From the NCBI GenBank assembly GCA_943325515.2, contig CALPPS020000067.1, forward strand, positions 1-14,052: a stretch of 14,052 nt of DNA, given 5' to 3'. Source of the DNA: Flavobacterium psychrophilum (GTDB taxonomy: Bacteria > Bacteroidota > Bacteroidia > Flavobacteriales > Flavobacteriaceae). How positions within the stretch are numbered: the stretch's first letter is position 1; every line of letters begins with the position of its first letter. A model generated the notes under the pieces. That model did not search any database. It was not told where the DNA came from and worked only from the letters and a program-made list of their open reading frames with translations. Shown one piece after another: positions 9,621-13,963 of the stretch. Both the position numbers and the translations under genes were made by a program.

Positions 9621-9680
9621 AACACCCCTTTGGTGAACCCATCCCTACATATAGAGAAGTCATTGAAGGGGTGTTGTTTT
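9621..9680 (+). terminator. Long-loop hairpin after the lipoprotein gene, partly built from the repeat
   Basis: A perfect 10-bp stem AACACCCCTT (9621-9630) and AAGGGGTGTT (9666-9675) with a 35-base loop, followed by GTTTTTCC. It starts 18 bases after the lipoprotein stop and could end transcription. The right arm and T-run align with the start of the 88-bp repeat unit (GAAGGG, then GTTTTTCCTTCAACC), so the repeat seems to supply half of the terminator. Confidence 0.55.
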
Positions 9681-9852
9681 TCCTTCAACCTACAAAGTTA
9701 AATAAAATCTAAAAAAGAGTGGAAAATTCCCCTCCCTTGGAGGGGTGCCCGAAGGGTAGATGGTTTTTCCTCAACCCAAAAAGTTAAATTAAAATCTAAA
9801 AAAAGAGTGGAAAATTCCCCTCCCTTGGAGGGGTGCCCGAAGGGCGGGGTGG
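9665..9852 (+). repeat. Left tandem array of the 88-bp hairpin repeat
   Basis: Contains a degenerate first unit (9665-9745), one full unit (9746-9833) and the terminal part of a third (9834-9852). Each unit holds GCCCGAAGGGC, a T-run with TTCAACCC or a close variant, an AAAATCTAAAAA stretch, and the hairpin CCCCTCC-CTT-GGAGGGG (9729-9745 and 9817-9833). The last copy ends in GGGCGGGGTGG, whereas the internal copy reads GGGTAGATGG. That end lies 4 bases from the stop codon of the endonuclease gene. Core for comparison: 9817-9852. Confidence 0.9.
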
Positions 9853-9856
9853 GTTC

Positions 9857-10270
9857 CTAGCAGTAATGCTCAATAATAAAAATCTCCAACGCCTTCATCA
9901 CATTCTCTAAATCATGTAATATATTAAAATCATTTGTTCTGAAAACGGTTAATCCTAAAGACAATAAATAAGCCTCTCGCTTTTCATCATATTCTTCTTT
10001 ATCATTATGGCTTTCGCCGTCTATTTCAATAACCAATCCTAAAGTCTTAACATAAAAATCAACAATATAATTGCCAATTATTCGTTGTCTATCAAAATCA
10101 ATAGCGTGAAACTTACCTTTATGCACTTGTTGCCAAAATACAACTTCTGAGTAATTACCAGCTTTTCTTAATGCTCTTGCCCGAGATTTTAATTTGATGT
10201 TAAAAGGTAAATTTTCAACAAAATTTCGTTTAATTGGAATTTCTTTTATATGTGTTAGAATAGGTGTCAT
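9857..10270 (-). CDS. DUF559 / Vsr-like endonuclease-fold protein
   Basis: A 137-residue protein of the DUF559 endonuclease family, which has a PD-(D/E)XK-type fold related to Vsr mismatch endonuclease. Family signs: LKSRARALRKAGNYSEVVFW near 27-46, FDRQRIIGNYIVDFY at 59-73, LVIEIDGESH at 79-88, then a YDEKREAYLLSLGLTVFRTND-type block. Likely catalytic residues are Asp71, Glu82 and Asp84, with His88. The family's biochemical role is poorly known. I start at the ATG at 10270. A GTG at 10288 would add six residues but lies inside the adjoining repeat. The gene is framed by inverted repeat copies: one begins 15 bases upstream of the ATG, the other 4 bases past the stop. This suggests the gene and repeat travel or function together. 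There is no RAYT-type HUH motif and no partner methylase. Confidence 0.85.
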   Translation of the reverse strand: MTPILTHIKEIPIKRNFVENLPFNIKLKSRARALRKAGNYSEVVFWQQVHKGKFHAIDFDRQRIIGNYIVDFYVKTLGLVIEIDGESHNDKEEYDEKREAYLLSLGLTVFRTNDFNILHDLENVMKALEIFIIEHYC

Positions 10271-10284
10271 GATTATGATATTTT

Positions 10285-10320
10285 CCACCCCGCCCTTCGG
10301 GCACCCCTCCTCAGGAGGGG
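10285..10320 (-). repeat. Inverted copy of the hairpin repeat at the 5' side of the DUF559 gene
   Basis: Reverse complement of the core at 9817-9852: the first 26 bases and the last 7 are identical, and only the 3-base hairpin loop differs (TCA here, AAG in that orientation there), giving 33 of 36. In minus-strand RNA it forms two adjacent hairpins in the presumed leader of the DUF559 gene. Confidence 0.9.
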
Positions 10321-10393
10321 AATAGCATGCGGGTATTTTACTAATGATTTAATAAACTCAAAGATATTAAAAAATCTAAAGTATCTATAATTG

Positions 10394-10429
10394 CCACCCC
10401 GCCCTTCGGGCACCCCTCCGAAGGAGGGG
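10394..10429 (-). repeat. Second inverted copy of the hairpin repeat
   Basis: Again matches the 36-base core with a different loop (GAA). It lies 109 bases to the right of the copy at 10285, in the same orientation. On the plus strand it contains GCCCTTCGGGC, a stem closed by a C(TTCG)G tetraloop, followed by CCCCTCC-GAA-GGAGGGG. No gene lies between the two inverted copies. Confidence 0.88.
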
Positions 10430-10528
10430 AATATCAATTTGTTATTGTTGTTCTTGTGAGATTCTGAAAAACAAACTGTATATCAATTTGTTCAAAGTTG
10501 CAATTTCTTTAATACTACTTGTAAATTC
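10430..10528. other. AT-rich gene-free spacer within the repeat region
   Basis: No coding frame or RNA gene seen. It holds a 13-base direct repeat, ATATCAATTTGTT, at 10431-10443 and 10480-10492. The first copy touches the end of the inverted repeat at 10394-10429. It could be a rearrangement trace, but chance is possible in AT-rich DNA. Confidence 0.4.
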
Positions 10529-10759
10529 TGCTCCTCTTAGGAGCCTGTCCCGATAATAGGGAAGTGCCCGAAGGGCGTGATAGTTTTTCCTTCAACCCAC
10601 AAAGTTAAATAAAATCTAAAAAAAAGTGGTAAATTCCCCTCCCTTGGAGGGGTGCCCGAAGGGCGTGATAGTTTTTCCTTCAACCCACAAAGTTAAATAA
10701 AATCTAAAAAAAAGTGGTAAATTCCCCTCACTTGGTGGGGTGCCCGAAGGGCGGGGTGG
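10529..10759 (+). repeat. Right tandem array of the 88-bp hairpin repeat
   Basis: A diverged head (10529-10564) is followed by full units at 10565-10652 and 10653-10740, which differ at only 2 of 88 positions (10730 and 10736), and a terminal piece 10741-10759 ending GGGCGGGGTGG. The period matches the left array and the orientation is the same. The diverged head has a different stem with the same loop, GCTCCT-CTT-AGGAGC (10530-10544), plus an extra TCCC/GGGA hairpin (10548-10562). The right end directly abuts the stop codon of the HAD gene. Read from the minus strand, GC-rich hairpins followed by a T-run (8 T within ACTTTTTTTTAG) could terminate that gene. Confidence 0.9.
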
Positions 10760-13471: not shown

Positions 13472-13963
13472 GATTTAAGATTTGGGATTTGGGATTTGGG
13501 ATTTAGGATTTGGAAATTGGGATTTGGGATTTAGGATTTGGGATTTAGGATTTAGGATTTAGGATTTGGGATTTAGGATTTGGGATTTGGGAATTGGGAT
13601 TTGGGATTTGGGATTTAGGATTTGGGAATTGGGATTTGGGATTTGGGATTTAGGATTTGGGAATTGGGATTTGGGATTTAGGATTTGGGAATTATGATTT
13701 GGGATTTGGGATTTAGGATTTGGGATTTGGGATTTAGGATTTGGGAATTGGGATTTGGGATTTAGGATTTGGGATTTAGGATTTGGGGATTTGGGAATTG
13801 GGATTTGGGATTTAGGATTTAGGATTTGGGATTTGGGATTTGGGATTTAGGATTTGGAAATTGGGATTTGGGATTTAGGATTTGGGAATTAGGATTTGGG
13901 AATTAGGATTTAGGATTTAGGATTTAGGATTTAGGATTTAGGATTTGGGATTTGGGGATTTGA
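13472..13963. repeat. Heptamer minisatellite array, about 70 units (GATTTGG / GATTTAG / GAATTGG)
   Basis: About 70 head-to-tail 7-base units fill 492 bases, with two single-G insertions. Main unit forms are GATTTGG, GATTTAG and GAATTGG. A longer 35-base pattern (GATTTGG, GAATTGG, GATTTGG, GATTTGG, GATTTAG) recurs in tandem around 13584-13653. The plus strand is G-rich: five successive GGG tracts with 4-base loops lie at 13582-13612, a G-quadruplex candidate. The array starts 20 bases upstream of the tatD-like start codon. Stop codons recur in the frames, so it is not coding. Confidence 0.95.

Follow-up and report, generated by a model that had tools for sequence, protein, structure and literature searches.

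DUF559 nuclease genes framed by inverted triplex-type repeats: a candidate nuclease-repeat pair in Flavobacterium and other bacteria

Does a nuclease gene that lies between two inverted copies of a short repeat belong together with those repeats? The question is raised by a locus in the window, by which we mean the whole analysed stretch of 14,052 nucleotides (positions 1 to 14,052 of contig CALPPS020000067.1, assembly GCA_943325515.2, Flavobacterium psychrophilum). In this locus a gene encoding a DUF559 protein is framed by two repeats whose G-rich tails point toward it. The partnership between DUF559 genes and such repeats is well supported by our comparisons. It probably reflects a cognate pair, consisting of a nuclease of the Vsr/EDxHD-type PD-(D/E)XK group and intrastrand-triplex repeats, with the nuclease recognising the fold, cutting, and mobilising the unit; the partnership is observed, and from it we infer cutting and mobilisation. 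The central features are as follows.

9857..10270, minus strand: DUF559 nuclease gene, ATG start, 137 aa, PF04480 match
9817..9852, plus strand: intact triplex-type element downstream of the DUF559 gene, no mismatch, tail facing the gene
10285..10320, minus strand: intact triplex-type element upstream of the DUF559 gene, inverted, no mismatch, tail facing the gene

An earlier reading of the letters alone (the sequence-only reading) had described these elements as inverted 36-base cores with mismatches confined to a hairpin loop and with the same edge turned to the gene on both sides. Direct alignment bore this out: 9817-9852 and the complement of 10285-10320 are identical at 33 of 36 positions, all three differences fall in the hairpin loop, and the GGGCGGGGTGG edge of both repeats points toward the DUF559 gene. 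The layout of the element is CCCCTCC-loop-GGAGGGG, followed by a second hairpin (TGCCCGAAGGGC) and then, toward the gene, by the tail GGGGTGG. The ATG at 10270 is a likelier start of the gene than the GTG at 10288, which would give 143 aa and overlap the repeat; the ten nearest proteins are 137 aa long or close to it, matching the ATG-start product.

Across loci, the repeat is composed of a pyrimidine arm, a loop, a purine arm, a linker and a G-rich tail, the linker being either 2-3 bases long or a second hairpin with variable sequence and a conserved stem. The tail mirrors the purine arm: each G recurs as G, and A may be answered by A or T. In the window GGAGGGG is paired in this way with GGGGTGG, and at other loci AGAGGGG is paired with GGGGTGT and GAAGGGG with GGGGTAG; further arm/tail pairs are AGAAGGGG with GGGGTAGT, GGGGGAAGG with GGATGGGGG and GGGAGAGGG with GGGTGAGGG. 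As far as base order can tell, the mirror rule is that of an antiparallel purine third strand (G.GC with T.AT or A.AT), the short turn would fit such a fold, and the repeats flanking DUF559 genes could thus form triplexes.

To avoid circularity, the mirror rule was tested by picking the hairpin nearest the gene first and only then examining the next 45 bases gene-ward. The test was usable in 208 of 286 flanks (perfect hairpin, arm containing A), 201 of which were non-symmetric. A full mirror tail was found in 143 of these 201 flanks and a direct copy in 8, while tails swapped among hairpins with other arms gave a match in 152 of 11,610 cases. A stem of at least 4 was present in 62 of 86 distinct long linkers, compared to 30% of shuffles. 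Folding prediction for single-stranded DNA gave both hairpins of the window element, only modestly beyond shuffles (z -1.98 for the downstream element and -2.22 for the upstream one), with a tool that models no triplexes.

Since the tail mirrors the purine arm, the element can be placed among the intrastrand-triplex repeats (PIT, BoxC and TM), which were described in more than 260 genomes by Holder et al. 2015 (PMC4666352). The three perfect copies in the window contain the pyrimidine arm, purine arm and mirroring third block of this class, and its purine-motif rule, dispersed intergenic copies and inverted pairs are likewise shared. The published finder allowed loops of 1-6 bases, a range that includes the B-type elements with TTA linkers; the window linker, in contrast, is a second hairpin of 12 bases with its own stem, and the window element therefore represents an extended form of triplex repeat. 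According to the same article, TM_ECO forms a stable triplex in vitro, triplex repeats are linked to raised local instability, and no mobility genes were found in the context of the motif, whereas the repeats described here lie around a gene for a nuclease. Neither DUF559 nor endonuclease is mentioned in the article's main text. Four of the five MG1655 inverted pairs in its Table 1 are tail-in, as read here, and its copy 9 (1,351,204-1,351,239) maps between fabI and the DUF559-annotated gene ycjD. In our data this copy, the E. coli K-12 triplex motif 9 adjoining ycjD, corresponds to L161 (3205-3240 and 3408-3761), with the tail away from the gene. Of 5426 complete E. coli genomes, 3362 contain at least 80% of the motif 9/ycjD region. 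E. coli lineages lacking ycjD were considered as empty sites and left unused, the two examined having efflux genes beside fabI (PMC12817139).

The window protein is a single-domain PF04480 protein (Pfam; 92.4 bits, with the cut-off at 20.6; E 2.1e-26). Its Pfam search returned no transposase and no HUH (Y1) match, the only other match, MTES_1575, being below the cut-off. An AlphaFold2 model of the 142-residue reading had a mean confidence score (pLDDT) of 91.6. The fold is of the Vsr/EDxHD-type PD-(D/E)XK, and the active-site residues E47, D76, H93 and D100 are invariant. Fold comparison thus agrees with the sequence-only assignment to a Vsr-like fold without HUH motif; by fold and active site the DUF559 protein ranks with the Vsr/EDxHD-type PD-(D/E)XK nucleases and would be expected to cut. 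We know of no established role for DUF559 proteins, including YcjD of E. coli. YcjD itself is classed among PD-(D/E)XK nucleases in PMC1189080.

In total, 3013 relatives of the window protein were found. The comparison covered the flanks of 143 DUF559 genes, drawn from Bacteroidota, Proteobacteria and other groups: those of the 80 best loci with window-protein relatives (taken from public genomes blind to repeats), the window, 41 loci from the Flavobacterium group set and a Pseudomonadota sample, 20 further loci and ycjD. The Pseudomonadota sample comprised 60 genomes, 20 of them with a PF04480 match, and yielded 49 matches. Of these, 34 loci entered the comparison; matches that were weak, partial, duplicate (L124 = L057) or unfetched did not. 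On at least one side of 130 of the 143 genes, and on both sides of 64, the element finder detected a repeat whose tail points to the gene, so that the arrangement anticipated from the window, a DUF559 gene between inverted copies, recurs elsewhere and reaches Proteobacteria. Upstream elements face the gene in 119 cases and away from it in 37, and downstream elements in 75 and 32, respectively. Among control open reading frames (ORFs) from the same loci, only 6 of 428 have a tail-toward element (7 of 428 in any orientation), which gives a Fisher p of ~1e-104 with kinship ignored. In the same phylum sample, all 17 Vsr genes lack such an element.

An inverted-repeat score used earlier had reached at least 35 in 53 of 80 DUF559 genes compared to 6 of 611 control ORFs; it gave the window only 18, probably a scan-boundary artefact, and was replaced by the element finder. 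The same architecture, with other sequences, is found in Pseudomonadota and further loci. An upstream element accompanies 27 of 33 proteobacterial DUF559 genes, against a background of 22 motifs in 400 kb of eleven DUF559-bearing genomes, or 0.01 expected per flank and strand. A search of Rfam gave no family match in the window or in 20 loci.

Gene and repeat are also matched in type. At L001, which has neighbours on both sides in common with the window, both flanking repeats are CTCCTCC/GGAGGAG/GAGGTGG; arm, partner and third strand have been altered jointly, in both flanks, relative to the window type. In a Flavobacterium group set of 150 genomes, a match to the protein at any level was found in 61 and a close match (E <= 1.2e-35) in 21. 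The common repeat pattern is present in 20 of these 21 close-gene genomes, the exception being G059, with no common copies and five of the L001-type variant. Either pattern occurs in 21 of 21 close-gene genomes versus 18 of 129 others (p 3e-15). Because flanking copies enter this count, copies more than 1 kb from the gene were counted separately, and were found in 12 of 21 close-gene genomes versus 18 of 129 others (p 5e-5; kinship is ignored in both tests). Copies elsewhere in the genomes, with number and occupancy varying between species, had been proposed as a check on the window, and both were observed. Four genomes have two DUF559 subfamilies, and all eight loci in them hold their own repeat type only. 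As a separate observation, L057 and L061 of Ghiorsea, which we take to be Zetaproteobacteria, encode DUF559 proteins that share 60% and 58% identity with that of Flavobacterium and have GAAGGGG/GGGGTAG repeats; it is possible that the gene plus its repeats was transferred between phyla.

The basic unit is an inverted pair with the tails inward, which with the nuclease gene constitutes the autonomous form and with a short spacer the dispersed, gene-less form. Where adjacent repeats of the Flavobacterium set are under 700 bases apart, gene-enclosing pairs are tail-in in 10 of 11 cases; the 33 gene-less pairs comprise 6 tail-in, 9 tail-out and 18 tandem ones, the last mostly from one array. In 80 kb of background of the pseudomonadotan genome G183, four tail-in pairs and one overlapping tail-out match were found, and a gene-less tail-in unit of ~125 bases is present at 10 or more further places in this genome, with 75-87% identity. 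The orthologous junction in G265 lacks the unit, and the flanking genes are joined directly. G183 has ten PF04480 matches (L120, L134, L147-L152, L222, L223), of which eight are nearly complete, and repeats of several types; given its many DUF559 matches and dispersed gene-less pairs, it is a good model genome.

Protein pairs 80-90% identical have no common neighbour in 40 of 96 cases. Upstream of purH, a region read in 30 of 36 Kaistella-group genomes, the gene is present in 5 and an apparent deletion scar, retaining the outer edges only, in 2; in some of the gene-less genomes the upstream gene of this purN-purH locus is not clearly purN. For the locus of the window itself, the comparison covered 30 photolyase loci. 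The gene is present in three (G059, G002 and G033, the last assigned by protein-match coordinates and not by reading of the locus), G038 has a worn single repeat, and neither gene nor repeat was seen in 26 of 30 within the stretch of at most 1.5 kb available. An empty site, which the sequence-only reading had suggested looking for, is provided by G059 (filled) and G151 (empty), a pair with matching flanks. The empty allele of G151 has no repeat pair and may be ancestral or the product of a precise loss. G051, G151 and G038 are relatives without the gene at the window's locus, yet variant or worn repeats are present in them, as expected from prior loss of the nuclease.

Under the reading that nuclease and repeats form a cognate pair, the repeat would fold when its strand is single, during replication or transcription. 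The nuclease would recognise the fold plus the arm sequence and cut at or near the foot of the repeat, after which repair or transposition could copy or remove the unit, including the gene and gene-less repeat pairs. Such a mode of action would be similar to that of REP-associated tyrosine transposases (RAYTs) on repetitive extragenic palindromes (REPs). We also lean, by a little, toward the broader proposal that DUF559 nucleases are the missing partner enzymes of triplex repeats from Bacteroidota to E. coli, forming minimal mobile systems in which the nuclease reads the folded triplex (arm sequence plus third strand) and moves or processes the repeats. The process behind the pairing may be transposition, homing, or repair in which the repeats act as regulators.

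Several observations weigh against a mobile cognate pair. Many of the 143 loci are related, and the counts are not independent. Thirteen of the 143 genes have no gene-facing element (L023, L038, L045, L047, L105, L108, L110, L116, L144, L146, L158, L160 and ycjD). Of these, L110 and L146, from a Flavobacterium DUF559 subfamily, have AAGGGGG/GGGGGAT repeats in both flanks, all with the tails pointing outward; the single copy at E. coli ycjD is downstream, with its tail away from the gene. The repeats had been tied to DUF559 from the window alone; the tie is upheld by every close-gene genome of the Flavobacterium set and loosened by the 18 of 129 other genomes that have repeats without a close gene, and 9 of the 21 gene-bearing genomes have flanking copies only. 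In G148 a GGGGTGT variant, absent from the rest of that genome, borders the gene upstream and downstream, and the genome has 12 copies of the common type. Of 26 protein pairs at least 90% identical, 24 have both neighbours in common, and movement of the DUF559 gene is slow. Finally, inspection by eye of the purN-purH locus, the photolyase loci and one gene-less pair gave no target-site duplication that could be called.

It is unlikely that the relationship is one of homing, in which the nuclease would cut existing repeats or repeat pairs, break repair would copy the gene in with the repeats as homology arms, and the repeats would spread by other means. The dispersed repeats of G059 are of the same variant as those flanking its gene, and the repeats therefore follow the gene; the empty allele of G151, though possibly a loss, has no repeat pair. 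A housekeeping role, which we regard as quite unlikely, would have the nuclease remove or repair hairpins or triplexes that stall replication, with the gene-adjacent copies as regulatory sites or terminators, and the repeats arising and decaying otherwise. Vsr is a repair nuclease, and the Vsr-type fold of the DUF559 protein together with the slow movement of its gene is consistent with this role, as is the instability tied to triplex repeats (PMC4666352). However, the model requires neither inverted tail-in elements on both sides of 64 of 143 genes, nor a concerted change of both flanks, nor filled and empty sites.

The gene could also be cargo between repeats mobilised by another enzyme, as the genomes having repeats without a close gene would allow. 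We regard this as very improbable, since protein subfamily matches repeat type in genomes with two subfamilies, and one gene family alone lies between the repeats across phyla. Coincidence, or a set of plain transcription terminators, has a negligible chance of being correct: the elements do contain hairpins and are intergenic, but the control ORFs (6 of 428) and Vsr genes (0 of 17) rule out a terminator or chance reading, and the three blocks covary.

The resemblance to REPs and RAYTs noted in the sequence-only reading holds in part. As with REPs, their mosaics (BIMEs) and RAYTs, a nuclease-like gene is framed by inverted palindromic repeats and gene-less inverted pairs occur elsewhere, which is a likeness and not membership. 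The enzyme here is DUF559 and not Y1/HUH, and the repeat, a triplex motif and so more than a REP-like palindrome, has a third-strand mirror block and no GTAG tag. Membership was ruled out on the same grounds (no HUH; no GTAG tag, the window tail being GGGGTGG); the GGGGTAG tails in L043, L057, L061 and L068 track the arm sequence. The EDxHD fold is common to the DUF559 protein and to the Vsr mismatch endonuclease and the homing endonuclease I-Bth0305I, and the Vsr genes sampled have no such flanks. The second downstream element of L122 appears to resemble the Rhizobium RIME, and Rhizobium RIMEs may belong to the same repeat class. To our knowledge, no enzyme is linked to the RIME elements of Osteras et al. 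1995. The name RIME occurs in PMC2573895. The CGTC-tagged REPs, apparently without a transposase according to Di Nocera et al. 2013 (PMC3733652), were rejected as relatives by comparison of the window element with their description there (CGTC foot, AT at the stem base, CCA tail).

Because both enzyme and repeat differ from REP/RAYT, we provisionally count the system as new, similar to REP/RAYT in outline only. We know of no other system pairing a nuclease with triplex repeats. A search limited to an open-access library found no paper combining DUF559 with 'inverted repeat' and, among the 12 papers listed for DUF559 with a triplex, BoxC or PIT element, none that contains both, and the novelty is accordingly provisional. 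Accounts of triplex repeats so far include neither an enzyme nor a role on which there is agreement, and the link to DUF559 makes both testable. If correct, it would point to a repeat-and-nuclease system of an origin separate from REP/RAYT, and could explain the differences in copy number and instability attributed to triplex repeats. That three DNA blocks change in concert across clades is evolutionary, rather than test-tube, evidence that a triplex fold matters in living bacteria.

The remaining features of the window locus include further repeat copies and two arrays of 88-base units, which correspond to the tandem arrays reported to the left and right of the gene.

10394..10429, minus strand: third intact copy, oriented like the upstream element, no mismatch
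9729..9759, plus strand: worn copy, hairpin intact, tail lost, two mismatches
10636..10668, plus strand: worn copy, hairpin intact, tail lost, two mismatches
10724..10759, plus strand: worn copy, first hairpin mismatched, second hairpin and tail kept (read from the sequence and the inverted-repeat listing)
9676..9844, plus strand: tandem array of 88-base units with the left-hand repeat copies
10564..10753, plus strand: tandem array of 88-base units with the right-hand repeat copies

A longer row of elements was observed in G149 (G149:C1:95872-98047), where fourteen intact copies, mostly 153 bases apart, lie far from the DUF559 gene of that genome. Elsewhere in the window, positions 13479-13962 contain ~69 copies of the 7-base unit GATTTGG, upstream of a TatD-like gene.
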